DNA of 64,000 nt from Actinokineospora auranticolor (GTDB lineage Bacteria; Actinomycetota; Actinomycetes; Mycobacteriales; Pseudonocardiaceae), in contig NZ_PTIX01000015.1 of assembly GCF_002934265.1 (NCBI RefSeq), forward strand, positions 62,001 through 126,000. Direction: 5' to 3'. Shown here piece by piece: positions 23,401 to 60,346 of the stretch (its first letter is position 1; every line of letters begins with the position of its first letter). The translations under genes and the position numbers were made by a program. Under the pieces are notes generated by a model. That model was not told where the DNA came from and did not search any database. It saw nothing but the letters and a program-made list of their open reading frames with translations.

Positions 23401-24399
23401 ATGTTTGAGGCGCTCGGGTTGAGTGAGACTTCCGAGCTGGTGTACCTGGCACTGCTGGATTGCGCGGACGGCGACTACCGCCACCTCGTCGAGCACCTCG
23501 ACCTCACGGAACGCGAAGTCGTCGTGGCGCTTGATGAATTGACGAAATTGGCGCTGCTGCAGGCGGGCGACGCCGGTCGGCGGCTGCTGCGGCCGGTCGA
23601 TCCCGAGGTCGGCGTGGCGGCGTTGATCGCCAGGCGGCAGGCCGAGATCGCGCGCAGGCAGCAGGAAGTCGAAGAGAGCAAACTCGCGTTCGCCCGGTTG
23701 CTTTCCCGGCACTCCGAATCCGGTGCCAAATCGGCCGATTCCGGCGTCGAGCACCTGATGGGGCTGACGGCGATTCGGCGACGGCTTCGCGAGATAGCGG
23801 AGTCCTGTGAACGGGAGGCGTGCTCGTTCATGCCGGGCGGCGCGGCGTTCGCCGAGGGCCTGCCCGTCACCCGGTTCCTGGATTGCGAGGCCATCGACCG
23901 GGGAGTGCGCCTGCGGACGATCTACCACGACAGCATCCGCAACCACCCGCCCGCGGTCGAGTACGCCCGCAGGCTGTCCGACCTCGGCAGCGAGGTGCGC
24001 ACCGCGCCATCGCTGCCGCTGCGGATGTTCGTCGTCGACCGGCGGATCGCCGTGGTGCCGGTCGACGACGACGACGCCGACTCGGCGGTAGTCGTCTCGA
24101 TCGGCGGCGTCGCCAGTGCGCTGCACACCCTGTTCGCGTCGGTGTGGCGGACCTCGACGCCGCTCGGCCCGCCCCGGCCGCGCGCCGCGGACGGCTTGAC
24201 CGACCAGGGCCGCGAAGCGCTCAAGCTGCTGGGCAAGGGGTGCACCGACGAGGTGATCGCCCGCCGGTTGGGCGTTTCGGTGCGCACGGCCCGCCGCGTC
24301 GCGTCGGGACTGCTCGCGCGGTTGGACGCGCGGAGCCGGTTCCAGGCGGGCGCGCGGGCCGTGGCACGGGGCTGGGTCGACATCGACGACCTCGACTAG
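23401..24399 (+). CDS. TrmB-like / LuxR-C-terminal transcriptional regulator
   Basis: 332 residues. An N-terminal TrmB-like winged helix (MFEALGLSETSELVYLALLD, DLTEREVVVALDELTKLALL) is followed by a coiled coil (ARRQAEIARRQQEVEESKLA), a PLD-like effector domain, and a C-terminal LuxR HTH (LTDQGREALKLLGKGCTDEV, then ARRLGVSVRTARRVASGLLA). This fusion is common beside actinomycete peptide and specialised-metabolite genes. It ends 4 bases from the convergent M29-like gene and is the likely pathway regulator of the RiPP locus. Confidence 0.85.
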   Translation: MFEALGLSETSELVYLALLDCADGDYRHLVEHLDLTEREVVVALDELTKLALLQAGDAGRRLLRPVDPEVGVAALIARRQAEIARRQQEVEESKLAFARLLSRHSESGAKSADSGVEHLMGLTAIRRRLREIAESCEREACSFMPGGAAFAEGLPVTRFLDCEAIDRGVRLRTIYHDSIRNHPPAVEYARRLSDLGSEVRTAPSLPLRMFVVDRRIAVVPVDDDDADSAVVVSIGGVASALHTLFASVWRTSTPLGPPRPRAADGLTDQGREALKLLGKGCTDEVIARRLGVSVRTARRVASGLLARLDARSRFQAGARAVARGWVDIDDLD

Positions 24400-24403
24400 C
24401 GTG

Positions 24404-25558
24404 TCAGGGTCGCCGAACCCCGGGCACCTGGCAGGTCGGGTCCTCGGAGAGCCCCTGGAGCTGGCGGTACCCCATGCCGCAGCAGTCGCCGGTGATGTCC
24501 TCGTCCAGCGCGTCCACCGGGTGGGGCACGTCCAGCGGCTGGACCCGGGTCAGGTCGATGGGGTCGACCTCGTCGTCGATCCACATCAGACCGCCGACGG
24601 TGATCAGGTCCAGGTGGGCCCACGCCATGTACCCGACGCGGCTGTTGCTCTGGTTGTGCGCGCCGAACCCGAGGTGCAGACCGCAGCTGCGCTCGTTGAT
24701 GTGCGAGTTCGCGGTGAGGAACTCGCCGACGCCGTGGTTCGTGCCGAGGCCGAACTCGCCGATGTTGCGCCCGTTCGGGCTGTTCAGGCAGAGCTCGAAC
24801 ATCTCCAGCAGTTCCGGGCGGTCGCAGCTGATCGACCGGGCCTTACCGCCCTCGATCTCCACCCGGGCCGGGTTGTCGGCCAGCTTGGCGTTCAGGTCGC
24901 TGATGATGTTGGCGTTGTACGCGCCGTCGGCGACCAGCACGCCCTCGACACCCGCCGGGAAGGTGGCGATCTCCCCGGCGGGCAGGATCGTGAAGCCGCC
25001 GGGCCGCCACACCCCCCGGTTGCTGATCCACTGGTACTTCTCGCTGTCGAGGTCGACTGTGATGTCCGTGCCGCCCTCGGTGGTCACGCGGACCCGCTTG
25101 GCGTTGTCCAGCCGGTGCAGCAACGTGCCGTTGAGCGACGACAACTCCGCCGGGCTGACGTTGAGCGCCTTGGTGAAGAAGTCGGCGCCCGCGCTGATGA
25201 TCCGCAGGATCATGGTGTTGCCCTGGCCGTAGCGGCTCAGCAGCGGCGCGAGCACGTCGAAGTGCGACATCGTGTCCAGCTCGAGGGTGATGATGACGAG
25301 CCTGCCCGGCAGCGCGGCCGGGTCCGGCAGCACCGCGCCGATCCGCTCGGCGAAGCCGCTGTCCTCCAATGGGCGCATCGGGATGATGTCCGGGGTGAAC
25401 CCGCGTTGCCGCAGCCCGAGCGCGACCCAGGCCGCGGGGTCGCGGCTGTCGGGTGTGTAGGTGATCACGAACTTGTCCTGGTCGCGGATCTTCACGTAGT
25501 CGTCCAACAGGGAGCGGACCCCCTCGAAGACCCGCTCGTCGACCATCTGCGCAGTCAT
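24404..25558 (-). CDS. M29-fold metalloprotein (aminopeptidase T / NicX-like) of the RiPP locus
   Basis: 384 residues. Metal-ligand signatures of the M29 fold are in the C-terminal half: EFGLGTN (E268), INERSCGLHLGFG (E289, H295) and AHLDLI (H315, D317). The fold is shared by metal aminopeptidases (family M29) and the iron dioxygenase NicX, so either peptide trimming or an oxidative step is possible. The gene lies 131 bases downstream of the precursor gene on the same strand, with a hairpin between. Removal of the leader or exposed N-terminal residues is the simplest proposal. Extra Cys residues near the end (GDCCGMG, TCQV) are unusual. Confidence 0.75.
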   Translation of the reverse strand: MTAQMVDERVFEGVRSLLDDYVKIRDQDKFVITYTPDSRDPAAWVALGLRQRGFTPDIIPMRPLEDSGFAERIGAVLPDPAALPGRLVIITLELDTMSHFDVLAPLLSRYGQGNTMILRIISAGADFFTKALNVSPAELSSLNGTLLHRLDNAKRVRVTTEGGTDITVDLDSEKYQWISNRGVWRPGGFTILPAGEIATFPAGVEGVLVADGAYNANIISDLNAKLADNPARVEIEGGKARSISCDRPELLEMFELCLNSPNGRNIGEFGLGTNHGVGEFLTANSHINERSCGLHLGFGAHNQSNSRVGYMAWAHLDLITVGGLMWIDDEVDPIDLTRVQPLDVPHPVDALDEDITGDCCGMGYRQLQGLSEDPTCQVPGVRRP

Positions 25559-25604
25559 TGTCGCTCCTTGGGTAGTGCCCGAAGTGAATTGTTTCCCGGA
25601 TCGC

Positions 25605-25639
25605 GGTGGCCCCGCCCGCGGCATGCCGACGGGACCACC
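25605..25639 (-). terminator. Hairpin between RiPP precursor and M29 gene
   Basis: In the minus-strand RNA, GGUGGUCCC (25639-25631) pairs with GGGGCCACC (25613-25605): nine pairs with one U-G wobble, 17-base loop. No U-tract follows, so partial termination or RNA stabilisation that raises precursor over enzyme levels is more likely than a full stop. Confidence 0.45.
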
Positions 25640-25689
25640 ACCTTTCGCAACCCGTCCCCGCCGTTATCCCGCTGGGGCGGCGATACCGA

Positions 25690-25809
25690 TTACGGCGTGT
25701 CCAGGTACCAGGCGACGGTGCCGAACTCGATCTGCTCGGCCTTGCCGGGCTCCGGCTCGGACTCGGCCATCGCGGTGAGCAGGGTCTGCAACTCCTGGGG
25801 GTCAGGCAT
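25690..25809 (-). CDS. RiPP precursor peptide, core ending AWYLDTP
   Basis: 39 residues: leader MPDPQELQTLLTAMAESEPE, then PGKAEQIE and the C-terminal FGTVAWYLDTP. The ATG at 25809 is preceded by AAGGAAGG at 7 bases, a strong ribosome site for a minor-length gene. The acidic, helical leader and aromatic C-terminus are what a P450-modified RiPP precursor looks like; tryptorubin A, made by a P450, has the core AWYIWY, which shares AWY. W34, Y35 and D37 are the obvious modification sites for the P450 and the HExxH enzyme. The leader/core boundary is not known. It is transcribed divergently from those enzymes and precedes the M29-like gene. Confidence 0.8.
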   Translation of the reverse strand: MPDPQELQTLLTAMAESEPEPGKAEQIEFGTVAWYLDTP

Positions 25810-25940
25810 GGTGCGCACCTTCCTTCGAGACCACACCGGCGACCTGCCGGCGGATCCCATGCTCCCGCGCGCGTTCGCCCATCGCGAGTGGTCATTTCCT
25901 GCCAGTGGTCGGCGCGGCATGAACCGGCCACCATAAACGA

Positions 25941-25968
25941 TTGTGGCCTATTGTCGTGTAGGTATACT
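25941..25968 (+). promoter_or_regulatory. Candidate promoter of the HExxH-P450-MFS genes
   Basis: TTGTGG (25941-25946) and TATACT (25963-25968) are spaced by 16 bases, an unusually AT-rich element for this DNA. On the minus strand ACGACA and TATGGT, also 16 apart, could form an overlapping promoter for the precursor gene. Confidence 0.5.
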
Positions 25969-26051
25969 CGACCAGGCGAACTGATCGCCGCGGTGTCGGA
26001 ATCGACGCCGACTATCGACACGCCGCCGACGTGACCCGGGAGCGCAGTGCG

Positions 26052-26999
26052 ATGCCATCCGCAGCCGAGGAATACCTGAGAAATCAGCTCACCTCATTCG
26101 AGATAAACCAGAACGCGACCGCCGCCCTGGCGACGGTGTACCACCGGCGGCTCGGTCGACGCCTCTGGGCGCGCCTCGCCGAGCAGGGCACGCCGCCGGG
26201 CGGACCCGATGGCTGGCGACGACTCACGTGGCTGCACCCGAGCGTCGTCCGCATGGTCACGGTCGGCCCGGTCGACGCGGGCGCGCTCGGTGCCGGGACG
26301 TACACCGTGGTGGGAGGGCCCGCGCGGCCACCGCTGGAGCACCTCCCGGAACGCGACGGCGTGCCGTGGCTCGAGGAAAGCGTCCGCTACCTCGAACACG
26401 ACATCCGGGCGGTCGACGATGCCCAGTCGTTGACGTTGTCCCGGCGGTTGGCCCGGAGCGCGCGGCCACACGTCGACCAGGCCGTCGAGGTGCTCGCCCG
26501 GGTGTGGCCCGCCGCCGCGCGGGAGTTCCGGACCCTGGTGCGGTCGATCGTGTACGTGGACGGGACGGTGTTCCGCTCGGCGACGGTCGAGCAGACGTAC
26601 GGCGCCATCTACGCCGCGCCGCGCTCGCTGGGCAGCGTCGCCGCCGCGTTCGAGATGCTGCTGCACGAGACCGGCCACCACGCCCTGTACCTGCGGAACT
26701 CGTTCGGGCCCTTCGTGCTCAACGGCGCGGCACTGGCCTCGCACCCGCTGCGACCGGACCCGAGACCGATCTTCGGCGTCCTGCACTCCGCGCACGTCCT
26801 GGCCCGGATGGCCACCGGCCTGCACCGCTGGACGGCGGAGGCGGACGCTCCCGACGAGGCGCACGAGCGGCGGGAGCGGGCGCTGGGGAACCTGGCGCAG
26901 AGCCTGGACATCCTCGACAGGCAAGCCGAGTGGACGGCCCAGGGCGCCGACTACTTCACCGACCTCCGCGCGTGCGCGGATTCGTTGCGGGCGGCGTGA
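26052..26999 (+). CDS. HExxH-motif peptide hydroxylase candidate (alpha-KG-HExxH type)
   Basis: 315 residues from the ATG at 26052 (GGGAG upstream); a GTG at 26031 would add seven residues but lacks a Shine-Dalgarno. The defining motif is LLHETGHHALYL with H205, E206 and H209; H245 and H248 (GVLHSAHVL) are possible further ligands. The rest is helical, as in the HEXXH-motif peptide-modification family linked to RiPP pathways, members of which are reported as 2-oxoglutarate-dependent beta-hydroxylases rather than proteases. Beta-hydroxylation of Asp37 of the precursor is a natural prediction. It heads a plus-strand operon with the P450 and exporter. Confidence 0.8.
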   Translation: MPSAAEEYLRNQLTSFEINQNATAALATVYHRRLGRRLWARLAEQGTPPGGPDGWRRLTWLHPSVVRMVTVGPVDAGALGAGTYTVVGGPARPPLEHLPERDGVPWLEESVRYLEHDIRAVDDAQSLTLSRRLARSARPHVDQAVEVLARVWPAAAREFRTLVRSIVYVDGTVFRSATVEQTYGAIYAAPRSLGSVAAAFEMLLHETGHHALYLRNSFGPFVLNGAALASHPLRPDPRPIFGVLHSAHVLARMATGLHRWTAEADAPDEAHERRERALGNLAQSLDILDRQAEWTAQGADYFTDLRACADSLRAA

Positions 27000-27138
27000 C
27001 CGGACCCGCGCCGCGGCGCCCGGACCGCCGACCACTGAACCGGAAGTCGTTGTTCGAAGCCAAAGCCGGACGAGGTCCGCGCTGCCACGGCCGCCGCGGA
27101 GCGGGCCCGCCCGCCGCGTTCGAAGGGAGAGTTCCGCG

Positions 27139-28350
27139 ATGGAACAACCGGCCTACCCGATGTCCCGGTCCTGCCCGATGCGCCCGCCGGACCGGTACAC
27201 CGAGCTGCGTGCCGGGGCGCCGCTCGAGAAGATCACCCTGCCCAGCGGGCGGACCGCCTGGTTGATCACGCGCTACGAGCACGTGCGCCGGTTCCTCGCC
27301 GACCGGAACGTCAGCACGAACCGGCTGCACCCCAACTTTCCCTTCTACCGCCCGCTCGCGCACAAGTTGATCGGCGTCAACGCGTCCCTGATGAGCCTGG
27401 ACCCGCCGGCGCACGCGGTGCTGACCCGGATGGTGATCCCCGAGTTCACCCACAAACGCGTGCAGAAGCTGCGGCCCCTCGTGCAGCGGATCGTGGACGA
27501 CCACATCACGACCATGCTGGACGGTGACCGGCCCATCGACCTGGTGGACGCTCTCTGCCGCCCGGTCACCGCCCAGGTCATCTGCGAGGTCCTCGGTGCC
27601 CCCTACCGCGACCGCGAGCTCTTCCGCTCGACCAGCAAGGCGATGGCCGACTGGCACAGCAGCCTGCGCGAACGCGAGGAGGCGGACGCCGCGCTTCGCG
27701 GATACCTCAGCGATTTCGTGGCCGCGAAGGTGGCGGAGGCCGAGCAACCGGGTGCCGTGCCGGGCGACCACCTGGTCGGCAGGCTCATCGCCAAGAACCG
27801 GGAGGAGCGGGTCCTCAGCCAGGAGGACATCGCCGCGTTGTGCCTGTCGCTGCTGAGCGCCGGGCACGAGACCACGGCCAACGTGATCGCGCTCGGCACC
27901 GTGCTGCTGCTCGAGAACCCCGAGCAACTCGCCGTGATCCGGGCCGACCCGACCCGCACCCCGGGTGCGGTGGAGGAGATCCTGCGCCACACCAGCATCA
28001 CCGACCCGAGCGGGCTGCGGGTGGCGCTGGCCGACATCGAGGTCGGCGACATGGTGGTCAAGGAGGGCGACGGTGTTGTCGTGTCGACCGCGGCGGCGAA
28101 CTGGGATGACAGCGTCTTCGCCGAGCCGGAGAAACTCGACTTCGACCGCGACGCGCGGCACCAGCTGGCGTTCGGCCACGGCATCCACCGGTGCGTCGCC
28201 CAGAACCTGGCCCGTCTCGAGCTCGAGATCGCGTTCACCACGCTGTTCGCCCGGGTCCCCGGGCTCCGGCTCGCCGCCCCTGTCGAGGAACTGGACTTCA
28301 AGGATGGCGCGCTCCTCTACGGTGTCCACACACTGCCCGTCACCTGGTGA
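27139..28350 (+). CDS. Cytochrome P450 of the RiPP locus
   Basis: 403 residues, bacterial class I size. I-helix LLSAGHETTANVI (A241-T246), K-helix EEILRH, heme loop FGHGIHRCVAQNLARLELE with Cys352 as thiolate ligand; the usual Gly two after Cys is Ala here. GAAGGGAGA precedes the ATG. Beside a precursor ending in a Trp-Tyr pair it most likely forms a biaryl, C-N or ether cross-link between aromatic side chains, as in biarylitide and atropopeptide pathways. No ferredoxin gene is adjacent, so redox partners must come from elsewhere. Confidence 0.9.
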   Translation: MEQPAYPMSRSCPMRPPDRYTELRAGAPLEKITLPSGRTAWLITRYEHVRRFLADRNVSTNRLHPNFPFYRPLAHKLIGVNASLMSLDPPAHAVLTRMVIPEFTHKRVQKLRPLVQRIVDDHITTMLDGDRPIDLVDALCRPVTAQVICEVLGAPYRDRELFRSTSKAMADWHSSLREREEADAALRGYLSDFVAAKVAEAEQPGAVPGDHLVGRLIAKNREERVLSQEDIAALCLSLLSAGHETTANVIALGTVLLLENPEQLAVIRADPTRTPGAVEEILRHTSITDPSGLRVALADIEVGDMVVKEGDGVVVSTAAANWDDSVFAEPEKLDFDRDARHQLAFGHGIHRCVAQNLARLELEIAFTTLFARVPGLRLAAPVEELDFKDGALLYGVHTLPVTW

Positions 28351-28410
28351 GGAGGTGCCGTCATCATCCGGACGTCCCGGCCAGCCCGTCGCCCTCGAGC
28401 GGAGGCGCGC

Positions 28411-29673
28411 GTGACGACGACCCCACGCCGGGCCGCGATCGCAGCGGAGCCCGCCGTCCGCCTGCTGGTCCCACTGCGGGATCGGCGCTTCGCGCTGTAC
28501 TTCATCGGCCAGCTGCTCTCCCGGATCGGCGACGGCATCTACCTGGTCACGCTGCCGTTCGTCATGCTCAACCAGGGCGGCGGTCCCGCGAACCTCGGCG
28601 TGGTGCTGGCCTGCTACGGCGCGGCCAGGCTGGCCGCCCTGCCGGTCGGCGGCACGCTCGCCGACCGCCTGGGCGCCCGGCCGGTGATGCTCGCCGCGGA
28701 CGCGCTCCGTGCCGTCGTCGTGCTCGGTTTCGTCCTGCTCGCGGCCAACAGCCGCATCCCCCTGTGGGCGATGGTCGCGGTCGCGGTCCCGTTCGGCGTC
28801 CTGGGCGGGATCTTCATGCCCGCCTCGTTCGCCGTGCTGCCGCGGATCGTGCCGCCCGAGTCGCTCGCCGCGGGCAACTCCCTGATCCAGGTCATGCAGA
28901 GCACGTCGAGGATCGCCGGGCCCGCGCTGGGCGGGACGCTCGTCGGGGCGTTCAAGAGCGGCGTGGGGCTGCTGATCGACGCGGTCACGTTCCTGGTGTC
29001 CAGCCTGACCCTGGTGGCGATCCGCCCCAGGCCCGCGGCCGGGGCACCGCGCGCCGACGACGTCCCGGACGTCGACCGGCTGCGGACCTGGCGATCGGTG
29101 CTGCGCTACGCCACCGGCTCGCCCCTGGTGCGGATGAACCTGCTGACCACGCTGGTGTTCAACCTCGCCGCCGTCGGCCTGATCGAGGTCGCGCTGCCGA
29201 TCCTCGCCCAGACCACGCTGGACCGCGGCGCCCCCGGGTTCGGGATCATGATGGCGGGCCTCGGCGGCGGCTCGGTCCTCGGCGCGCTCCTGGGCCCGAC
29301 CCTGCTCCGGCAACGCCGCCGCGGACTGATCGCGCTCTGCCTCGGCGTCGTCCAGGGTCTCGCCCTCGCGGCCATCCCGACGGGCTCCTCACTGGTCATC
29401 GCCACCGCGACCCTGTTCACCGCCGCGTCCCTGCAAGCCGCGGTCAACGTCTTCTACATGACCATGCTCCAACGCGAAGTCCCCGCCCAGGCACTGGGCA
29501 GGATCATGAGCCTGCTGGCCACCTGCGCGGGCCTCGCCTACCCGGCCTCCGCGCTACTCGCCGGGACCGCCCTGGGCGCGGTCGACCCGCGGCTCGTGAT
29601 CATCGTGGCCGGGCTGGGCGTGTCGGTGTCCTTCTCGGTGGGGTTCTTCAGCAAGCCGTACCGGAACCTCTGA
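28411..29673 (+). CDS. MFS exporter (EntS/MFS_3-like)
   Basis: 420 residues with about twelve membrane segments. Motif A is GGTLADRLGARPVML; LSRIGDGIYLVTLPFVMLNQ is the first helix. The length and the NSLIQVMQSTSRIAGPALGG segment fit the MFS_3 group of siderophore and metabolite exporters. GGAGG lies 5 bases before the GTG start, 60 bases after the P450 stop, so it is probably the last gene of that operon and exports the mature peptide. Confidence 0.88.
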   Translation: MTTTPRRAAIAAEPAVRLLVPLRDRRFALYFIGQLLSRIGDGIYLVTLPFVMLNQGGGPANLGVVLACYGAARLAALPVGGTLADRLGARPVMLAADALRAVVVLGFVLLAANSRIPLWAMVAVAVPFGVLGGIFMPASFAVLPRIVPPESLAAGNSLIQVMQSTSRIAGPALGGTLVGAFKSGVGLLIDAVTFLVSSLTLVAIRPRPAAGAPRADDVPDVDRLRTWRSVLRYATGSPLVRMNLLTTLVFNLAAVGLIEVALPILAQTTLDRGAPGFGIMMAGLGGGSVLGALLGPTLLRQRRRGLIALCLGVVQGLALAAIPTGSSLVIATATLFTAASLQAAVNVFYMTMLQREVPAQALGRIMSLLATCAGLAYPASALLAGTALGAVDPRLVIIVAGLGVSVSFSVGFFSKPYRNL

Positions 29674-29851: not shown

Positions 29852-30280
29852 GTGACGTCGGAGTTCGAGGCTCAGTTGCGGGCCGTGTCGCTGCGGGTGA
29901 CGCAGCCGCGGTTGGCGGTGCTCGCCGTGCTCCGGGACCACCCGCACGTGGACACGGACGCGGTGATCGCGCTCGTGCGGGTCGATCACCCGTCCGTGTC
30001 GCACCAGACGGTCTACGACGTGCTCCGGGCACTGACCGACGCCGGTCTGCTGCGCCGGATCCAGCCCGCGGGCGCGAACGCGCGTTACGAAACCCGTGTG
30101 GGGGACAACCACCACCACGCCGTGTGCCGGTCCTGTGGCGCCATCGCGGATGTCGAGTGCGCCGTCGGCCACGCCCCCTGCCTGACCGCCTCGGACGACC
30201 GCGGGTTCGTGGTCGACGAGGCCGAAGTCGTCTACTGGGGCACCTGCCCCGACTGTGTTTCCGCCGAACAGACTGCTTGA
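29852..30280 (+). CDS. furA: Fur-family redox regulator FurA
   Basis: 142 residues. Winged helix LRVTQPRLAVLAVLRDHPHV, SHQTVYDVLRALTDAGLLRR; dimer/metal domain with DNHHHAVCRSCGAIADVEC and a C-terminal CPDC, i.e. two CxxC-type zinc pairs. It lies 15 bases before katG, the classic arrangement in which FurA represses katG and itself until oxidised. GTG start. Confidence 0.92.
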   Translation: MTSEFEAQLRAVSLRVTQPRLAVLAVLRDHPHVDTDAVIALVRVDHPSVSHQTVYDVLRALTDAGLLRRIQPAGANARYETRVGDNHHHAVCRSCGAIADVECAVGHAPCLTASDDRGFVVDEAEVVYWGTCPDCVSAEQTA

Positions 30281-32536
<2,256 letters not shown>

Positions 32537-50580: not shown

Positions 50581-50662
50581 CGCGGCGAACCCGGCCATTC
50601 CGGACCCGCGCCCGGTGCCGGTGTGCAAGGCTCTGGCCGATGGCCGTTCAGGGGGAACGGCA

Positions 50663-51529
50663 GTGGGGGAGCAGAGCGTGACCGAGTGGTACGAGGGCGC
50701 GGGCGCCGTGGAGAGCGTCGCCGGGTTCGTCGACACGTTGACCGGTGAGTCCGAGGGTGAGGGCGTCGACGTCATCGACGCCGCCATCGGGGGCGCCGGG
50801 ATGGTCGTCGACGTGGTCGGCTCGGCCGCCGACCCCCTCAGCTCGGTCATCTCGGCCGGTGTCGGCTGGCTGTTGGAGCACATCAGCTTCCTCCGCGAGC
50901 CCCTCGACGCCCTGCTCGGCAACCCGGACGAGATCAACGCGAACACCGACCAGCTCAAGTCCGCCGCCCTTGAGATGAAGATGGTCGCCCAAGAACACCG
51001 GGACGACGTTCAGGCGATGGGCGGCTCCTGGTCCGGCGAGTCGAACGAGGCGTTCCGGGCGTCGCAGGAACAGATGGCGGCGCAGTACGAGGCGCTCGGC
51101 AAGACGATGGACGGCACGGCCGCGATCTACGCGTTGTCCGGCGCGCTGGTCTGCGAGCTGCGCGCCATGGTCTTCGACTGGATCTCCGACCTGATCGGCG
51201 ACCTGGTCACAGGCGCGATCATCGCCGCCGCGTCGGCCACGGTGACCCTCGGCAGCTCGGTCGCCACCTATGCGGGTTATGCCATGGGCAAGGCGATCAG
51301 GCTGTCCACCAAGATCGCCGGGCGGCTGAAGAAGCTGCTTGAGGCGATGGAGCGATTCGGCAAAAGGATCGGCGAGCTGTCGAAGAAGATGTCCGGCCTG
51401 ATGAAGGGCCTGGAGAAGTTCTCCGACTACGGCGACTACGCCAAGACCGCCTACGACGCGGTCAAGCCGTACGAGATGCCGCAGACCCAACCGCAGACCC
51501 CTGGCGTCAACCCCGGCTTGGCCCACTGA
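50663..51529 (+). CDS. WXG100-like type VII secretion partner protein
   Basis: About 288 residues. AMGGSWSGESNEAF is a W-x-G helix-turn-helix, flanked by long helices (NTDQLKSAALEMKMVAQEHR; FRASQEQMAAQYEALGKTMD). A hydrophobic stretch follows (LVTGAIIAAASATVTLGSSV) and an amphipathic Lys-rich C-terminus (KRIGELSKKMSGLMKGLEKF). GTG codons at 50663 and 50678 both have G-rich ribosome sites. It sits 8 bases before the giant toxin gene and is the obvious ESX co-substrate or chaperone for it. Confidence 0.75.
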   Translation: MGEQSVTEWYEGAGAVESVAGFVDTLTGESEGEGVDVIDAAIGGAGMVVDVVGSAADPLSSVISAGVGWLLEHISFLREPLDALLGNPDEINANTDQLKSAALEMKMVAQEHRDDVQAMGGSWSGESNEAFRASQEQMAAQYEALGKTMDGTAAIYALSGALVCELRAMVFDWISDLIGDLVTGAIIAAASATVTLGSSVATYAGYAMGKAIRLSTKIAGRLKKLLEAMERFGKRIGELSKKMSGLMKGLEKFSDYGDYAKTAYDAVKPYEMPQTQPQTPGVNPGLAH

Positions 51530-51536
51530 CCGACAG

Positions 51537-54500
51537 ATGCGCAGGCACGGCGATTCCCCCGGTGGCAGCCACGGGGGAACCACCCACCACGGCGGGTCGA
51601 GCACACCCACCCCGGGCGGCTCCGTCGGTCCCGGGTCCGGAGTCGGATCCGGGACGGGCATGGACCCCGATGGCATGGACGCCATCGGCAACCGCATCTC
51701 CGGTCGCGGCGGCCAACTCCGCGACGGCGTCGGCGGCAAGCTCAACATCGGCGCCTCGTCGCAGAGCGCGGGGGTGTTCGGCCAAGTCGCCATGTTCAAG
51801 GCGGATGAGGCGATCAAGACCGCCCGCGAGGGCGTCCAGCGGGCGGCGGAATCAGCGGAGACCAGCGGGCGGAAGGTCAAGGACACCGCGCAGGCGGCCC
51901 GCGACACCGACCGGTCGAACGCGTCCAACCTCGGCCGCTCCGGCGACGGCCTGGGCAAGACCGCGCCCCGCGCGTCCTCCGACTCAAGCGTCGCACCACG
52001 GACGGCGAACGCCCCGGGCGCGGCAAGACCAAGCGGCGCACCGGCGGTGTCGGGCGGCACCGACACCGCCCCTCGTGGCCCGGCGGGCACTCCGGGCGCT
52101 CCCCGCCAGGTCAACAACCCCACCGCGACGGGCACGCCGCAACAGACCCCCACCGGCCCGACCAACCGACCGACCTCCGCACCCCGCGTGCCAGGCACTG
52201 CGGAGCAGGCCGGCCCGCCGGCCGCGTCTCGCACCCCCGGCGGGGGCCCGGCGACCGCGCAAGCAGGCGCCTCTGCCGGTGCACGCCCTCCGGACCTGTC
52301 CGGCCGCACACCCGGAACCCAGCCATCCGGCGGCCCACCCATGGGCACGGCTGGTTCACGCCCTCCCACCACACAAGCGGGCACCCCAACCGGTGCACGC
52401 CCACCCGGCGCTCAACCGGCCGGCGGGCCTGCTTCGCGTCCCTCGACCGCCGCCGGCGCTCCGGCAGGCTCGCGCGGTGCCCAGCCGACCGCAGGCCCGT
52501 CAACGGGCACCCCGGGCTCGCGTCCTTCCACTGCCCAGGCGGGCAACCCCGCGGGATCGCGTCCGCCGGGCGCTCCGGGAGGCGGCACACCAGCAGGCAA
52601 CCCGGCCTCCCGTCCGTCGGCGGCTGCCGGCGCCCAGGCCGGCTCGCGTGCGCACGGCGCCCAGCCGACCGGCGGCCTGTCGGCAGGTACTCCCGGCACG
52701 CGCCCTCTCAGTGCGCAGGCAGGTGCCCCGGCCGGCTCGCGTCCACCGGGCACGCCAGCAGGTACTCCGGCCTCCCGTCCGTCGACGGCGGCCGGTGCCC
52801 CGGTTTCACCCGCACCCGCGACCCAATCGACCGGCGGCCCGCTCACAAGTGCTCCCGGCACTCGTCCCCCCACTGCCCAGGCGGGCGCACCGGCAGGCTC
52901 GCGTCCATCAGTCACCCAGTCGACTGGTGGCCCGTCCACGGGCACCCCAGGCTCACGTCCGCATGGTGCCCAGCAGGCAGCTGGTCCGCCCTCGGGTGCC
53001 ACCGCTTCCCGCTCCTCGTCTGCGGCAGGCACCCCAAGCAGTCCGACAGGTGCACAGCCGACCAATGGGCCGACTACGGGCACCCCTGCCTCTCGGCCCG
53101 CGACCGGGGCAGGCGCTCCCGGCGGCTCGCGTCCGCCTGGCATCCAGCCCACTGGCGGCCCGTCGGCGGGCACCCCGGGTTCCCTCCCCCCGCCCGGCTC
53201 CCGTCCGCTTGGTGCTCAGCCACCCGGTGGTCCCGCTCGTCCGCCGACCGCCGCCGGCGGGCTGCCGGGTGGTTCCCGTCCGACCGGCGCGGATCCCGGC
53301 CCGTCGACGAACCCGCCCCGGCCCGCCATCGGCCAGCCGGGTGCCCATCAGCCTGGCGCTCAGGCCGGCCCGGCCAACCGCATCGCCGACGCGCTGTCCG
53401 GTGGGGCACCACGTCAGGGAGGAGTGCAGGCCGGTCCGCACGCGCCGGCGGGCTTCCGGCCGAACGCTCCCGGTGGGCACCCCGGCTTCCCGGGCGGCGC
53501 CACCCCGGATGGCACGCGGACCTCGCCGGGCCGTGTTCCGGGGACGTTGCCCGGTGATCCCGCTGCCGGGCCCGGTCGGCCGCCGAACGTGCCCCGACAG
53601 CACCCGGGAGCGCCCGCCGCCTACTCCGGTCACCCGGGAAACCCACCCCAGGGCGTTCGCCCACCCGGCCAGACGCCTCCCCACGGCGGGTTCCCGCCGG
53701 GAGGTAGGCCGCCCGCGCCCCAGGGCAACCCGCACGGCGGACCCACACGCCCCGGCGGCTTCGCCCCGCCGCCGAACCGCCCTTTCCACCAGGCGCCGCC
53801 ACCCGGCCACCGACCGCCACTTCAGCACGGACCGCAGGCACCCCACCCGGGTCGGCCGGGTGTCCCGCCGGGGCAGCACCGGGGCAACGGCGGATGGCAG
53901 GGCAACCCGCCGCCCGGGCCTGGCGCGCCGCCGCGGCGGCCCGGGCCGCCCGAGAACGCGTGGTCGACCCGGCCGGAGACACAGCCGTCCGGGCCCGCGT
54001 TCACCCCCGACCAGCTCCGCGAGTACGGCATCGACCGCGGCGACTCGGACCGCCCGCCCGTGGCGATGCACGGCGTCGACCCGACGAAGTACGGCGTGGC
54101 CAAGGTGATCGTCCGCAAGATCATCGACTGGTTGCACCGCGATCACACGCTGTACCGCGGCGACGCCCGGTCCCCGGAGGAGCTCGCGGCGGCCAGCGGT
54201 TTCCTCCCGCCGTACACGAACCGCCCGGAGTGGGCCTCGAAGTACCCGAACGGTGTCACCCCGGACATCGCCCAGCACGCCGACGGCCAGACCAACGCCT
54301 TCGTCTCCACCTCGACCGACCGCAAGACCGCCGAGGACTTCGCGCTCGGCCGGTACCTCTACGAGATCACCGCACCGGGCGGTATCTACTCCGACGCAAC
54401 CCTGTACCCGAGCACCGGCAAGAAGGACCGCGGCGAGTCGGAGGTCCTCTTCCCCGGCGGCATCGACTGGAAGTACGTCAAGGGCTGGTACAAGATGACG

Positions 54501-57500
54501 TACGACCCGGGCGACAGGAAGTTCGTGCGCGGCCCGTTCGTACCCAACCCGGACTACCTGTACCGCGACCGGAACACGTCCACAACGGACACCTCGACCG
54601 CCACCCAGTCGCCCCCGAAGCCGAACCCCCGGATCGACGGGCCGCACGCGCCCCCGCAACTCCACGACGGCCCCGACCGGAACTACGGGCCGAACACCCC
54701 GCCCCGCCAGGAAAGCCGCCCGATCCGCGAGGGTTCGCTCGGCGACCGCATCGGTCACCTGGCCGACCCGACCCTGGAATCCCTGCGCCCGCACCTGCGG
54801 TCGACCCCGGGTGGCATGTCCGCGTTCGCCCCGGGCGCCGCCTCGCCGTTCGTCAACGAGAAGTCGGCCCACAACAACGACGTCTACACGGCGGGACGGG
54901 TCCAGGGGATCCCCGGCCAGTTCCTCGTCGACATGCACGGCTCCGCCGACGCGATGCGGGTCGGCAACACCCCGTTGTCACCGCGGCAGGTGGCCGACCT
55001 CATCCGCGCCAACCCGGACTACGACGGCGGCCCGGTCACCGTCCTCGGCTGCGGCACCGGCAGCACCCGCGACGGGTTCGCCGCCCAGCTGTCCCGGGAA
55101 CTCGGCACCAAGGTCACCGCACCGACCGGCGACTCCTGGGTCGACCACACCGGCAACATGTTCGCCTCCAGCCGCGAACACGGCGCCGACCCCAGCAAGC
55201 CCGCCAAGCCCACCTGGCCCCCCAACGGCGAGTGGCACACCTTCTCCCCGGACGGCGACCAGACTGTCCACAAGGGACCGTACCCGCCCGGCCACACCCC
55301 GAGCTGGGGTACGAACACCCCCACCCGAGCGCCACAGCAAGCCGCCCACCGCGGCGAAGACACGACCCAGGACCACCGCCCCCGCCCCGAGCGGCGGCAC
55401 GTCCCACCGGTCCCGGACTCGGGTTTCCACGGCCACGGCGTCCCCGAGGCGAGCAACGCCCACGCCCAACGACTGGCCGACCAGGGCCGCGCCGCCGTCG
55501 AGCGGATCGCCGGGGGATTCGACCACACCCGCGTCGAACGGCTCGCGGACGGCTCCCACCGCGTCACGGATCCCCACGGCTCCTACACCGTCGACGTCCG
55601 CTCCGCCCCACTTCCGGAGCGGATGGTGGCCCGCACCACCGCCGACCACGAGGGCGGCAGGCACCTCGTCGAGCTATCTAGGAACATGGACAGCAGGCAC
55701 GTCGACCGCGCGGTCGCCAACGAACTCGGCACCATCGCCTACGAACGCAAACTCCACGCGAACGGCGAAACACCCCCCGCCCACGACGCGCTGCGCCCGG
55801 GCACCCCCGAACCCGGCACCCGCCCCTCCAGCCGGGACGCGGGCCGCGCCCAGGAACTGCGGGTCCTGGCAGAGCAGTACAGCAAGCTGACCCCGGCCGA
55901 CGCCATCAGCCTCGCCCGCGTCCGCCGGGAGGGCTTGGCCCTGGTCGACCACCTCGGCCTGCGCGACGACACCGCGGGCGCCCCGGAGCGGCGCGGCCTG
56001 GTCGACCAGCTGCTCACCGAGTCCGGCAGGTCGGACGTCCGCGCCTTCCTCGCCGACGTCGGACGCCCCGAACACGACCTACCACCCGGCGACCGCCACC
56101 ACGACAGCCCCAACAGCGAGCGGTCGGATACGGAACAACGGGCAGAGGCCGACCTGTCCAATCCGCCAGCAGATGCGGCTCCGGGGATCGAGCGTTTTAC
56201 GGCCGACCTCAAACGAAATGCTGAAATCGAAGCGGCACAACGAGGGACCACGCCCAAAGACGAGATCCAGCAGTTCATCATCGGGCGCGCGCTCGCTCGG
56301 TTCTTCGCGGACAACCCCGATGGCTGGGTGCTCAAGGGTGGGCAAGCGCTGCGTGCCCGCTATCCGGGCAGTAGATCGAGCACCGACCTCGACTTCACGA
56401 GGACCACGACGGCGGACCCGGAGAGCATGGTCCGCGACTACGAGCGCGCTCTGGCGCGTGATCTCGGTGACCACCTGACGTTCGTCCGAGGTGCGACGAA
56501 GTCGCTGCTCAACGGCACCGGCGTCCGCCTTTCCCACACCGTCTACCTCGGCGTCGACCCGATGATGGACCTCAGTGTCGACCTCGCCCCACCGCGGCCG
56601 AGGCCTGATCCGTCCGGTGCCGGGCCGGTGTGGCGCGAACCGGATGTGGTCCCGTTCCCGGACCGCGCTCTTTCGACCGGCGCCGAGGGAGCGACACCGA
56701 ACCTGCGGGTCATCTCGTTGGAGGAGACGCTGGCGCACAAGGTGTCCGGCATGTACACCCACGGCAGCCGAACGCTGGAAACCAAATGCGATGAGTGCGT
56801 GCTGATCAGCAGGGACAAGTTCACGTGCAGGTCGGGTGCCCCGCCGATCCGGTCCCAGGACCTGGCCGACGTCCTCATGCTCGCCACGAACAGCCCGTGG
56901 GACGCCAGGGAGACCCACGCGGAACTGCGGCGGGAGTTCGCCTGGCGGATCGACCAGCAGGAAGCCCTGCAGGTGCCGAAGCGCTTCGAGGTGCCGAACC
57001 CGGACTGGGCCCGCAGCTTCGCGGAATACGCCAAGACCCTGCCCGCTCTTGCCCACAAGAGCCTGAAGGAAGCGGAGATGCTGGCCGGCAGGTTCCTCGA
57101 CCCGCTGCTGTCGGACAACCCGCCGGACGCCCGCTGGGACCACCGGGAGTGGCGGTGGGTGGACAAGTCGGAACTCGACGGGCAGCAGTTCGACACACCG
57201 GACACCGAGCGCGGCGGCTCACCCGAGCAAGTCCAGGACTCGGGTGAGCAACCCCGCGTTCGGCAAGCCCAGCTGCTGGAACGCACCGGCGACGCGCCGC
57301 CCTCCGACGCCTTGGCAGATCCGGCGATGGTCGAGCGGTGGGACGCGCTGGCCGATCGACGCTCTCCGGACAGCTATGACGCGTTCGTGGACCGGCTCAA
57401 AGAGGGAGATCTCGGAACCTCGGAGAAGCTCAGGGCCGTACGCGACTTCATGGCCGAGGTGGGCGAGACCCCTTCGCCGGTGACGGGCTTGGACTCCAAG

Positions 57501-59303
57501 AACCTCCGGGTCTACACCCACCAGCGCGGCGAGCTGTACATCCACAGCGCGGCGTTGATGGCCGACCGGGGTACCACGCTGGAAATCGCCTACGAGTTCA
57601 ACCGCACGATCGGCACCTACCGCTGGGAGGCGCACCAGTCACACGTCGCGCACCTGGGCCCGGTTCCGGACGGCATCGAGGCCAACGACGCCAACGCCGC
57701 GGCCTACTGGCGGCAGAGCAACGGCCTCCCACGCACCGATTCAAGCGCGGACACGGTGACGCGCGACCTCGTCGACATGCAGGCGCAACCGCTGCGCGAC
57801 GCGATAAAGATGCGGCAACGGCTCATCGACGACCACGGCATCGATCCCAGCCGGATCCGATTGGTCCACGACGACGGCAAGGACAAGGGCGTTTACGGCG
57901 ACAGCCGCTGGGTCCGCGCGCACCTGCTCACGCTCGACGCGATCCGGGACAACCCCGAGCAGGCGCGCCAAGACATGCTCGACGCGATGCGCGGGTCCGG
58001 CGAGCGGGGAGAACACCGCGAGCGCCGCGCGCAGGACGTTGTCGACCGCCTCGAAGCAGCCACACCGCCCCGCGACGGACAGGGCGAGCGGACGCGTCAG
58101 AAGTACGCACTGCTCTGGGTTCGGGACTCTCGTGACCAACCGGTCGGCAGCAGGCACGGCCCCCACTTGGACACCCGACCGGAGATGCTGCGCCAGACGA
58201 TCGAGGCGCTTCGCGAGTCCCACCCGGACGTCCGACCGGTACTGCTCGGCGACGACGTGTTCGCCCGGCGCCCGGAACTGCTCGACCAGTGGCGGCGCGA
58301 CGGCGTGCTCGACGGCGTGGACGCCGACACCCTGGTGGGTTACTGGGACGCGGACCGCAACGGGGGACAACCCCTCAGCCACGCCGAGCAGGCGTTGTTC
58401 TTCCACCGGCTGACCGAGCAGCACGACGTCGTGCAGATCGGCATGGAGAGCGGTGCGATGGAGTTGCCCGCCGTCCTCGGTACCCCGACGGTCTACCTGG
58501 AAGCCAAGGAGCACGACGGCAACAAGGGCAACCGCTGGGCCCTCTACTGGCAGGAATGGGCCTACGGGAGCCACGAAGCGGCCGTGGACTCACGCGGCGC
58601 GCAGCTCTACGACAGCTCCGGCAGGCCGATCATCACGAGGTTCGCGGAGACCGAAGCGCGTTCCGCCCCGCTGTCGTCGATCGAGCGCGTGCTCTACGGC
58701 CGGGATCTGGACGACCCGTCGAACAGGCGAGCGCAGCCTATCGCCGTCTACGAGTCCGCCAGGGTCGCCGTGACCGCGGACCGGATCGTCCGGTTGGTGG
58801 ACAGCGGCGAGCTGGGGAGTTGGTCCCAACGGCTTGGTCGCACCGCCGGGCTCACCGGAGCGGAGTGGCAGACCTGGAGCGACCAGCAGTGGGCGGAGAG
58901 CGAGTTCTACGTCGACCAGCTGCACCGGTGGCTCAGCGCGGAGGCTGACACCTCCGAGGGGATGACACGCAAATGGGACGGTATCCGCCTCGCGCTCAAT
59001 GGCGTTGTCGATCCGGGCTTCACTGCTGACCGACAGATAGAGAAGTCGGACATCTTGTTCGCCTACGCCGGTTTCCGCAACGACCAACCGCTACCCGCGG
59101 ACCAAGCGGACCGGATCCGCCAGGCGTTCGCGGCCGCGCCCGAGGAACGGGCCGCAGCCGTCACCCAGGTGTTGACCGACCTGCTGTCGGATCCCGGATT
59201 CCGCAGACAGGCCGTGGACGACATGCGCGTCTTCGCCTTCGATCCGGCGGAGATCCAGAACCTGCGGGAAGCGATCGACCGGGTGGTTCGCCGTTCCGAG
59301 TAG
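51537..59303 (+). CDS. 2588-residue multidomain polymorphic toxin (ART, caspase-like, AbiEii, GT-like)
   Basis: Order of parts: helical ESX-type N-terminus (about 40-150, MDAIGNRISGRGGQLRDGVG); Pro/Gly-rich spacer (about 170-820); pertussis-type ADP-ribosyltransferase (about 850-1000: LYRGDARSP with Arg874, FVSTSTD 924-926, Glu967-Ser-Glu969); caspase-like domain (about 1090-1200: VDMHGSAD His1134, VTVLGCGTG Cys1172) that may autoprocess the protein; linker helices; AbiEii nucleotidyltransferase (about 1570-1800: VLKGGQAL 1598-1605, SSTDLDF with Asp1617/Asp1619, Lys1735, RSQDLADVL Asp1775); a C-terminal GT-B-like region (YALLWVRDSR about 2190; GMESGAMELPAVLGTPTVYL about 2302). There is no signal peptide, so type VII export is inferred. 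ATG at 51537; the ATG at 51660 is an alternative start. Confidence 0.85.
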   Translation: MRRHGDSPGGSHGGTTHHGGSSTPTPGGSVGPGSGVGSGTGMDPDGMDAIGNRISGRGGQLRDGVGGKLNIGASSQSAGVFGQVAMFKADEAIKTAREGVQRAAESAETSGRKVKDTAQAARDTDRSNASNLGRSGDGLGKTAPRASSDSSVAPRTANAPGAARPSGAPAVSGGTDTAPRGPAGTPGAPRQVNNPTATGTPQQTPTGPTNRPTSAPRVPGTAEQAGPPAASRTPGGGPATAQAGASAGARPPDLSGRTPGTQPSGGPPMGTAGSRPPTTQAGTPTGARPPGAQPAGGPASRPSTAAGAPAGSRGAQPTAGPSTGTPGSRPSTAQAGNPAGSRPPGAPGGGTPAGNPASRPSAAAGAQAGSRAHGAQPTGGLSAGTPGTRPLSAQAGAPAGSRPPGTPAGTPASRPSTAAGAPVSPAPATQSTGGPLTSAPGTRPPTAQAGAPAGSRPSVTQSTGGPSTGTPGSRPHGAQQAAGPPSGATASRSSSAAGTPSSPTGAQPTNGPTTGTPASRPATGAGAPGGSRPPGIQPTGGPSAGTPGSLPPPGSRPLGAQPPGGPARPPTAAGGLPGGSRPTGADPGPSTNPPRPAIGQPGAHQPGAQAGPANRIADALSGGAPRQGGVQAGPHAPAGFRPNAPGGHPGFPGGATPDGTRTSPGRVPGTLPGDPAAGPGRPPNVPRQHPGAPAAYSGHPGNPPQGVRPPGQTPPHGGFPPGGRPPAPQGNPHGGPTRPGGFAPPPNRPFHQAPPPGHRPPLQHGPQAPHPGRPGVPPGQHRGNGGWQGNPPPGPGAPPRRPGPPENAWSTRPETQPSGPAFTPDQLREYGIDRGDSDRPPVAMHGVDPTKYGVAKVIVRKIIDWLHRDHTLYRGDARSPEELAAASGFLPPYTNRPEWASKYPNGVTPDIAQHADGQTNAFVSTSTDRKTAEDFALGRYLYEITAPGGIYSDATLYPSTGKKDRGESEVLFPGGIDWKYVKGWYKMTYDPGDRKFVRGPFVPNPDYLYRDRNTSTTDTSTATQSPPKPNPRIDGPHAPPQLHDGPDRNYGPNTPPRQESRPIREGSLGDRIGHLADPTLESLRPHLRSTPGGMSAFAPGAASPFVNEKSAHNNDVYTAGRVQGIPGQFLVDMHGSADAMRVGNTPLSPRQVADLIRANPDYDGGPVTVLGCGTGSTRDGFAAQLSRELGTKVTAPTGDSWVDHTGNMFASSREHGADPSKPAKPTWPPNGEWHTFSPDGDQTVHKGPYPPGHTPSWGTNTPTRAPQQAAHRGEDTTQDHRPRPERRHVPPVPDSGFHGHGVPEASNAHAQRLADQGRAAVERIAGGFDHTRVERLADGSHRVTDPHGSYTVDVRSAPLPERMVARTTADHEGGRHLVELSRNMDSRHVDRAVANELGTIAYERKLHANGETPPAHDALRPGTPEPGTRPSSRDAGRAQELRVLAEQYSKLTPADAISLARVRREGLALVDHLGLRDDTAGAPERRGLVDQLLTESGRSDVRAFLADVGRPEHDLPPGDRHHDSPNSERSDTEQRAEADLSNPPADAAPGIERFTADLKRNAEIEAAQRGTTPKDEIQQFIIGRALARFFADNPDGWVLKGGQALRARYPGSRSSTDLDFTRTTTADPESMVRDYERALARDLGDHLTFVRGATKSLLNGTGVRLSHTVYLGVDPMMDLSVDLAPPRPRPDPSGAGPVWREPDVVPFPDRALSTGAEGATPNLRVISLEETLAHKVSGMYTHGSRTLETKCDECVLISRDKFTCRSGAPPIRSQDLADVLMLATNSPWDARETHAELRREFAWRIDQQEALQVPKRFEVPNPDWARSFAEYAKTLPALAHKSLKEAEMLAGRFLDPLLSDNPPDARWDHREWRWVDKSELDGQQFDTPDTERGGSPEQVQDSGEQPRVRQAQLLERTGDAPPSDALADPAMVERWDALADRRSPDSYDAFVDRLKEGDLGTSEKLRAVRDFMAEVGETPSPVTGLDSKNLRVYTHQRGELYIHSAALMADRGTTLEIAYEFNRTIGTYRWEAHQSHVAHLGPVPDGIEANDANAAAYWRQSNGLPRTDSSADTVTRDLVDMQAQPLRDAIKMRQRLIDDHGIDPSRIRLVHDDGKDKGVYGDSRWVRAHLLTLDAIRDNPEQARQDMLDAMRGSGERGEHRERRAQDVVDRLEAATPPRDGQGERTRQKYALLWVRDSRDQPVGSRHGPHLDTRPEMLRQTIEALRESHPDVRPVLLGDDVFARRPELLDQWRRDGVLDGVDADTLVGYWDADRNGGQPLSHAEQALFFHRLTEQHDVVQIGMESGAMELPAVLGTPTVYLEAKEHDGNKGNRWALYWQEWAYGSHEAAVDSRGAQLYDSSGRPIITRFAETEARSAPLSSIERVLYGRDLDDPSNRRAQPIAVYESARVAVTADRIVRLVDSGELGSWSQRLGRTAGLTGAEWQTWSDQQWAESEFYVDQLHRWLSAEADTSEGMTRKWDGIRLALNGVVDPGFTADRQIEKSDILFAYAGFRNDQPLPADQADRIRQAFAAAPEERAAAVTQVLTDLLSDPGFRRQAVDDMRVFAFDPAEIQNLREAIDRVVRRSE
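52180..53370 (+). repeat. Degenerate tandem Pro/Gly/Ala/Ser/Thr-rich repeats in the toxin gene
   Basis: Units of about 30-35 residues recur around GGPSTGTPGSRPSTAQAGAP and AGSRPPG-like phrases at least ten times. They probably form a flexible exported spacer between the secretion domain and the enzymatic cargo. Copy number should vary between strains. Confidence 0.75.
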
Positions 59304-59356: not shown

Positions 59357-60226
59357 TCAGACGATGGACCGGTCCTTGATGTCGGGCCACAGGCTTTGGC
59401 TGACGATGTCCGCGGCCAGGTTGGCGACGAGTTCGTCGGTCACCGTCTTCTCGTCCGCCGCGGACCCCAGCACGATGCTGCGGGTGGAGTGCAGCAGACG
59501 TCGCGCTTCCGGCAGCATGTCCTCGACCTGTTGGGGGAACATCATTGCTGTGGCCGACCGCACGTTGCGCGGAGACAGGCTGCCGAGGTGTAGATCTGGC
59601 GCGAAGTATTCAATGAACGCTCTGCCGTGGATCGGGAATGGATACCTGACCTTCGTGGCCAATGGGATCATGTAGGCGAGCAGTTCTCGCAGGTCCACGA
59701 GATCGAGATGCGCCGCATCGGAAACCAGGCGCTCGGGTGCTCCACCGCCACATTCGACCACGAGGTCGGCGATGGTCCGAAGGGGCGTGGTGACAGGGAC
59801 GCCTTCGACACGCATTACTTCCGTTTTGGGGATTTCTGCGACTGTGAAGGTAATATTCGGCAGCGCCTCGCGATCATTTCGCACTGTGAAGTGCGATCGC
59901 GCTCCAACGTATTTGCCGATTCTGTGCAGACGGGCCGCGCCGCCGTGTGACATCACAGCGTTCAACTCGTTCTTGCGGCGTTCATACGACGTCTCGTGCG
60001 GCTCCAGGGAAAGCCAGTCTTCATATGACTGTTGGTAAATCGTCCCAACCCGGTCCGTATAGCTGAGGTAGTAGGTCCCGTTCGGGAACCGCTCGACCAG
60101 GCTCATGTCCATCAGGTGGGTGAGTCCCTCGGCGCTGATCCCCAGTCTCGCCACCTGCGCAGGCGTGGCCAACCCATGCTGGTTCCTGGCCAACGACACC
60201 AGTTCGCCCAGCTCCCGTTCCCACAT
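59357..60226 (-). CDS. AbiEi-like antitoxin
   Basis: 289 residues from the ATG at 60226, which has GGGAGGAA upstream. N-terminal AbiEi winged helix: MWERELGELVSLARNQHGLA, TPAQVARLGISAEGLTHLMD, ERFPNGTYYLS; the larger C-terminal domain follows (VPVTTPLRTIADLVVECGGG is the usual AbiEi hinge region) and ends DIVSQSLWPDIKDRSIV. AbiEi proteins repress their operon and neutralise the AbiEii nucleotidyltransferase. The only AbiEii here is the domain inside the toxin gene that converges on it 53 bases away, so this is its likely immunity protein. Confidence 0.85.
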   Translation of the reverse strand: MWERELGELVSLARNQHGLATPAQVARLGISAEGLTHLMDMSLVERFPNGTYYLSYTDRVGTIYQQSYEDWLSLEPHETSYERRKNELNAVMSHGGAARLHRIGKYVGARSHFTVRNDREALPNITFTVAEIPKTEVMRVEGVPVTTPLRTIADLVVECGGGAPERLVSDAAHLDLVDLRELLAYMIPLATKVRYPFPIHGRAFIEYFAPDLHLGSLSPRNVRSATAMMFPQQVEDMLPEARRLLHSTRSIVLGSAADEKTVTDELVANLAADIVSQSLWPDIKDRSIV

Positions 60227-60346
60227 CCCGGTTCCTCCCAGATCCTGACGACGGCGGTCAGTCCGCCACCTCAAGCACGGTAGAGGCTACCCGGGCGCGG
60301 TCGGGTCGGTACTCGTCTTGTCGGAAGCCCGGTGTCCGGCGTCGGC

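Follow-up and report, generated by a model that had tools for sequence, protein, structure and literature searches.

Within a 64,000-nucleotide stretch of the 8.4 Mb Actinokineospora auranticolor assembly (the window) lies a compact cluster of genes for a short precursor peptide and its putative modifying enzymes, as expected for a ribosomally synthesized and post-translationally modified peptide (RiPP). The precursor gene sits between the gene for an M29-fold protein and a divergent operon encoding an α-ketoglutarate (αKG)-HExxH-type enzyme, a cytochrome P450 and a major facilitator superfamily (MFS) exporter, with a regulator at the edge (Table 1). An earlier note on this DNA had proposed this gene set, and all of the genes it named were found where it placed them. 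Its description of the locus as RiPP-type also holds: the conserved precursor, the αKG-HExxH family enzyme, the P450, the exporter and the M29-fold protein are each supported. This is a real, conserved RiPP-type cluster, and the M29-fold partner, which resembles CgnB of the crocagin pathway, is its more interesting feature.

Table 1. Genes and features of the cluster, in window coordinates
Feature	Position	Strand	Basis
TrmB/LuxR-like regulator, 332 residues	23401..24399	+	Sub-threshold helix-turn-helix (HTH) matches
M29-fold, CgnB-like metal protein, 384 residues from Met	24404..25558	-	Model fold, metal-site motif
Precursor peptide, 39 residues	25690..25809	-	Conserved in six loci
Codons of core Ala33-Trp34-Tyr35-Leu36	25702..25713	-	Invariant in 6/6 rows
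αKG-HExxH-type peptide hydroxylase (predicted), 315 residues	26052..26999	+	TIGR04267, ChlH match
HETGH metal-binding motif, residues 205-209 of the HExxH protein	26664..26678	+	Motif
Cytochrome P450, CYP105-type, 403 residues	27139..28350	+	PF00067, solved relatives
MFS exporter, 420 residues	28411..29673	+	PF07690

The precursor, MPDPQELQTLLTAMAESEPEPGKAEQIEFGTVAWYLDTP, comprises a leader (MPDPQELQTLLTAMAESEPEPGKAEQIEFGTV), the core AWYL and a variable tail (DTP), the border between leader and core being one that we infer. A GGAAGG stretch lies eight bases upstream of the ATG, and the peptide carries eight Asp/Glu residues and one Lys. Six distinct loci from three genera hold this precursor: the window, A. 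inagensis (L024), A. terrae (L025), Amycolatopsis xylanica (L023), a second genome of that genus (L071) and Actinoallomurus iriomotensis (L026). L013 and L014 are the same loci as L024 and L025, and L072 lies on the same contig as L023. In the six-locus alignment, the leader motif ELxxLLTAMAE and the core are invariant, the full set of invariant positions being P2, E6, L7, L10-E16 (LLTAMAE), E18, P19, P21, E28, G30 and A33-W34-Y35-L36. The earlier note had staked its reading on conservation of the precursor among homologous loci, and because the peptide is kept in six of them it is more than a chance reading frame. Compared with A. xylanica, the window precursor keeps 109 of 120 bases, with 172 of 215 aligned bases kept upstream and 90 of 127 downstream. 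The codons of this closest pair differ by five synonymous and five residue-changing substitutions, so the pair by itself is no proof of selection; the six-locus alignment does better as a sign of it.

All six loci carry the precursor together with M29-like, P450 and MFS genes (PF07690 is matched by the window MFS protein), which the comparison shows to be a four-gene core. The M29-like and P450 proteins of the other five loci are 77-90% and 79-84% identical, respectively, to those of the window. The HExxH gene and the regulator occur together in three of the six (the window, L023 and L071), with regulator relatives at 82% in L023 and 75% in L071. In Pfam, the window regulator gave only sub-threshold matches, to TrmB, GerE/LuxR and other HTH families. 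At the thresholds used, pairwise comparison of the six stretches gave no shared open reading frame (ORF) of at least 90 residues beyond the six named genes. The earlier note had proposed mining for the same leader beside both enzymes; the leader does stand with a P450 in every locus, but no HExxH gene was seen in the stretch read for three of them, and P450 plus HExxH does not survive as the defining pair.

Mining for the M29-like family, in counts that each include the window's own genome, gave 12 of 297 genomes of the taxonomic family at E ≤ 1e-5 (six of these below 1e-70). With five candidates scored per genome, 9 of 396 genomes of the phylum had a match at E ≤ 1e-10, the other eight being weak (8.5e-25 to 6e-11), and the class gave 3 of 394, one of them partial. 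Searches by genus or family of other genomes gave 1/35, 1/12, 3/80 and 1/8, and 72,556 plasmid records gave two matches, both weak. At one locus (L048), the match covers roughly the first 100 residues and goes no further, which may reflect a disrupted or diverged copy. For the P450, the next relatives listed among the 297 family genomes are 50-51% identical (E ≤ 1e-120; best six candidates scored per genome). Four loci with P450 homologues (L050-L053, among homologues at 46-51%) showed no M29-like match and no [VIAL]AW[YFWKEH][LIV] peptide.

Pfam assigned the window M29-like protein to no family at E ≤ 0.1, and to Peptidase_M29 not even at E ≤ 1. Five of the nine members of the family alignment match Peptidase_M29 at E ≤ 1 (best 1e-5); the relative from Micromonospora mirobrigensis (L027), the sole one for which a score was read, has 21.4 bits against a cut-off of 27, below the gathering score. 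A predicted model (predicted local distance difference test score, pLDDT, 73.5) matched only M29-fold structures at E ≤ 1e-3 (10/10 rows), including NicX, M29 aminopeptidases, and the crocagin proteins CgnB and CgnE. By this model, the protein appears homologous to CgnB/CgnE at the level of fold, which is what the crocagin family calls for. Numbered from Met, the invariant residues of the family are E196, E268, E289, H295, H315 and D317. Five zinc ligands of CgnB (PMC10070186) fall in the aligned stretch (E252, E274, H280, H291 and D293); all five have counterparts, invariant in 8/8 rows, and the sixth, E161, is unaligned. The CgnB motif NSxxNExxxGxHxGxG is kept as well, and a DEDI.GDCC tail follows at the C-terminus.

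What this protein does can be read in two ways. The crocagin study describes CgnB and CgnE as M29-fold proteins, of which CgnB carries zinc; acting with CgnC, a dioxygenase, the two convert Ile-Tyr-Trp into the crocagin core, and no aminopeptidase activity was observed (PMC10070186). Because CgnB tailors peptides with no such activity seen in that account (PMC10070186), we treat the 'trimming enzyme' of the earlier note as a rival rather than the default: the M29 fold it named stands, but the trimming role does not follow from a metal-site motif that matches CgnB. A true metallopeptidase would remove the leader or trim up to Ala-Trp, leaving all of the chemistry to P450 and HExxH. In favour of this, no other gene is shared among the loci, and an oxygenase-free pair exists in Burkholderia stagnalis (L046:7463-8597), where a 40-residue ORF ending FGTALWPV is followed, 58 bases on, by the gene for a 317-residue CgnB-like protein. 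Against this, the metal loop has the HxGxG motif found in CgnB, whereas six Pfam-positive M29 proteins have HxAxG, and an aminopeptidase would need to strip 32 residues. The RiPP-associated proteins also form a group of their own, apart from M29, in a 21-protein tree (95/98), albeit with long-branch warnings and with NicX-like proteins nearer than M29. On balance, a metallopeptidase is a serious but somewhat unlikely explanation. A further test, based on the M29 catalytic tyrosine, which we take to lie seven residues after the metal His, was dropped, as the residue at that position varies among the six Pfam-positive M29 proteins.

The P450 matches PF00067 and shows the AGHETT I-helix and FGHGIHRC haem motifs. 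Its best solved relatives are 2z36 and P450-SU1, both of which we take to be CYP105 hydroxylases, with CYP105Q4 and CYP105AS1 also in the list; the enzyme is thus closest in sequence to CYP105-type hydroxylases. The earlier note had expected aromatic cross-linking, for which we found no evidence: the nearest solved P450s are hydroxylases, and many of them bear CYP105 names. A Trp-Tyr (or Leu) bond in AWYL, akin to those of atropopeptides, would suit the adjacent Trp and Tyr, with Trp second after Ala, invariant in 6/6 loci. OxyB, presumably a cross-linking P450, is among the solved relatives, but its match (E 1.5e-62) is far below those of the CYP105-type structures (E 1e-85 to 1e-109), and the RiPP P450 model ApyO scores 47 bits against a cut-off of 525. 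P450s are known to make RiPPs whose second core residue is Trp (PMC11450843). However, none of the leader motifs listed there (KSLK, RSLK, ESLK, KSRK, KPLK and PSLK) occurs in the precursor, and a cross-link would leave the constant M29-like partner unexplained. We consider it improbable.

The HExxH protein matches NCBIfam TIGR04267 at 73 bits (cut-off 40), is matched by solved ChlH (8s5f, E 5e-4) and has the HETGH motif. By domain and motif it is a member of the αKG-HExxH family, and peptide hydroxylation is predicted. The earlier note assigned it β-hydroxylation of the core Asp. Enzymes of this kind add hydroxyl groups to Asp, His or Gln and are also capable of oxidative backbone cleavage, and for a radical SAM-fused HExxH enzyme Asp and His hydroxylation is known (PMC12636437). 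The window core does have Asp37. But tails after AWYL are DTP, ATQ and ATQ in loci with HExxH, and NTR, NTR and DQR in loci without; position 37 is therefore Asp in one of three loci on either side, with Ala in both L023 and L071 (AWYLATQ) and Asp in a locus lacking the gene (AWYLDQR). Because the core Asp does not track the HExxH gene, its hydroxylation is not the shared reaction, and we find this assignment highly doubtful; the target is probably a residue other than Asp. Position 31 does track the gene, being Thr in 3/3 loci with HExxH and Ile, Ile and Met in those without, which in so few and related loci is a lead only. Elsewhere in the window genome there is a second, higher-scoring TIGR04267 HExxH gene (282634-283128 of another contig), and 13 of 16 genomes of the genus carry at least one.

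We propose, with confidence that is evenly balanced, that the cluster makes a crocagin-related RiPP, in which oxidation of Trp/Tyr in AWYL falls to the P450, the CgnB-like protein serves to hold or cyclise the core, and HExxH adds a lineage-specific step. The ELxxLLTAMAE leader would be read by the M29-fold metal protein, which would hold the core and act on it, and the P450 would put oxygen on Trp or Tyr. In the most attractive variant, the P450, taking the role that CgnC has in crocagin, would oxidise the Trp indole and the CgnB-like protein would guide ring closure on the backbone nitrogen, with a hydroxy-pyrroloindoline (net +O) as the expected outcome. P450 indole oxidation toward a pyrroloindoline has been proposed for himastatin, as stated in PMC10070186; we found no description of P450-driven pyrroloindoline formation in RiPPs in the open-licence literature searched. 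HExxH might make one further αKG-dependent change, hydroxylating a non-Asp residue or oxidatively removing the variable tail that follows AWYL, a cleavage of the PflC/PosC kind. Leader cleavage might be carried out by the M29-fold protein itself or by a general protease, and the product would leave the cell through the MFS exporter.

Several observations weigh against this proposal. Fold scores are higher for NicX and aminopeptidases than for CgnB, two metal-site loops are poorly modelled (pLDDT under 50), and the sequence match to CgnB is weak (E 0.24). The window M29-like protein has a net charge of -20, and the precursor is acidic too; for crocagin, a basic CgnA leader and an acidic patch on CgnB are described (PMC10070186). 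Neither CgnC nor CgnD was seen, nor a further copy of the CgnE-like kind; the genome gave one M29-like match at E ≤ 1e-5, with six of its twelve candidates scored. No P450, HExxH or PhyH-type gene was found among ten neighbouring ORFs searched around the Burkholderia pair, which fits hydrolysis better. Finally, A. inagensis and A. terrae each carry a TIGR04267 gene elsewhere in the genome, so HExxH may act in trans.

More distant loci show the M29-fold protein and a candidate precursor as the constant gene pair, as far as sequence can tell. L027 (M29-like protein 63% identical) has a PhyH dioxygenase, an MFS protein, a methyltransferase and a relative of the window regulator (55%), and a small ORF carrying ...GGQVAWKISYSTYRA. 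L016 (45%) has a SagD-type YcaO above its cut-off, with a SagB-like protein and a leader-binding domain below theirs; L017 (38%) has a methyltransferase nearby; and L047/L044 (38%) have a DyP-type peroxidase and a degenerate HExxH-like protein. A small ORF lies upstream on the same strand in each, several with an ELxxLL-like start and AW. These patterns could mean that CgnB-type M29-fold proteins define a broad RiPP class (acidic ELxxLL-type leader, Ala/Pro/Leu-Trp core) into which varied modules are plugged (P450, P450 plus HExxH, PhyH dioxygenase, YcaO/SagB), with the window P450 driving pyrroloindoline formation in Ala-Trp-Tyr-Leu; we put this forward tentatively, as an unlikely extension. 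In 11 of 12 loci and six of seven lineages (L044 lacks it), the candidate peptide has a Trp among its last 20 residues, the candidates in L015, L016, L017, L044 and L046 having been chosen by eye from position and third-base G+C. But of the small ORFs in these loci, 23 of the 50 that look coding (471 of all 1166) have Trp there too, and A, P or L precedes it in 9 of 50 (141 of 1166), in a control set that counts the precursors themselves and contains two loci in duplicate. Given these frequencies, Trp is a weak hallmark outside the AWYL loci. L047 was likewise rejected as a recurrent HExxH plus M29 pair and left uncounted, its HExxH-like protein (31%, cut by the contig end) lacking the motif at the aligned place. 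At L016:7832-12902, in the same genus, an ORF ending APWTINCSA lies beside the M29-like, SagD-type YcaO and SagB-like genes, possibly an azole RiPP with a CgnB-like protein.

The window has other features as well. A Fur/PerR-type regulator and a catalase-peroxidase (KatG) gene directly adjoin it (29852-32536) and are not common to related loci. Farther on, an ORF of 2588 residues (51537-59303) combines a Scabin-like domain at residues 872-1007 with one of AbiEii type at 1584-1837, and has the look of a large toxin-type protein, secreted or polymorphic. Upstream of it (50615-51529) is a protein with a WXG100 match slightly below cut-off, and downstream, on the minus strand, are two adjacent AbiEi-antitoxin-like genes (59357-60274 and 60522-60941; PF13338 slightly below cut-off).

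If the crocagin-related reading is true, the CgnB/CgnE family, for which crocagin is the one product studied in vitro in the literature searched, extends to an actinobacterial branch that has a P450 and a clear core of four genes, all of which can be expressed together. The role of CgnB-like metal proteins (hold, cyclise or cut) could then be tested in a system with a single copy in place of two, and the presence of HExxH in some natural loci but not in others offers a ready comparison for its target.

Among known systems, M29 aminopeptidases (AmpT, PepS, AMPS) and the NicX dioxygenase share the fold but differ in metal-loop motif, gene context and C-terminal tail. With the αKG-HExxH hydroxylases (ChlH/ChlBH, BpmH, PflC/PosC), the window enzyme shares the TIGR04267 domain, the HExxH motif and a sequence match to ChlH; it differs in its neighbours, a P450 and a CgnB-like protein, in its presence at half of the loci, and in its target, which is probably not Asp. 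BpmH itself is a predicted HExxH enzyme from a cluster with an MNIO (PMC12257519). Atropopeptides of the tryptorubin type likewise pair a short precursor with a P450 and have core Trp second, then Tyr, but they are defined by a KSLK-type leader (PMC11450843), for lack of which we reject membership; here there are also an M29-like partner and an MFS protein in 6/6 loci, and the P450 is CYP105-type. In the literature searched, we found no RiPP cluster that combines a P450 with an M29-fold or CgnB-like protein, and no described product of this kind. CgnB/CgnE homologues occur in about 100 genomes, single-copy ones having an intact metal site, with putative precursors in the supplementary data (PMC10070186); the present clusters may be in that single-copy list. 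We do not file the window cluster as a crocagin cluster because it has no Tyr-Trp core end, CgnC dioxygenase or second CgnE-like copy. It differs from CgnA/CgnB/CgnC/CgnE of Chondromyces crocatus in its single M29-fold copy, its P450 in place of CgnC, its AWYL rather than IYW core, its acidic rather than basic leader, its extra C-terminal tail and the HExxH gene of some loci. Both systems place a short precursor next to an M29-fold protein and include an oxygenase; both also have a core with Trp and Tyr, and the five alignable metal ligands of CgnB are kept together with their surrounding motif.

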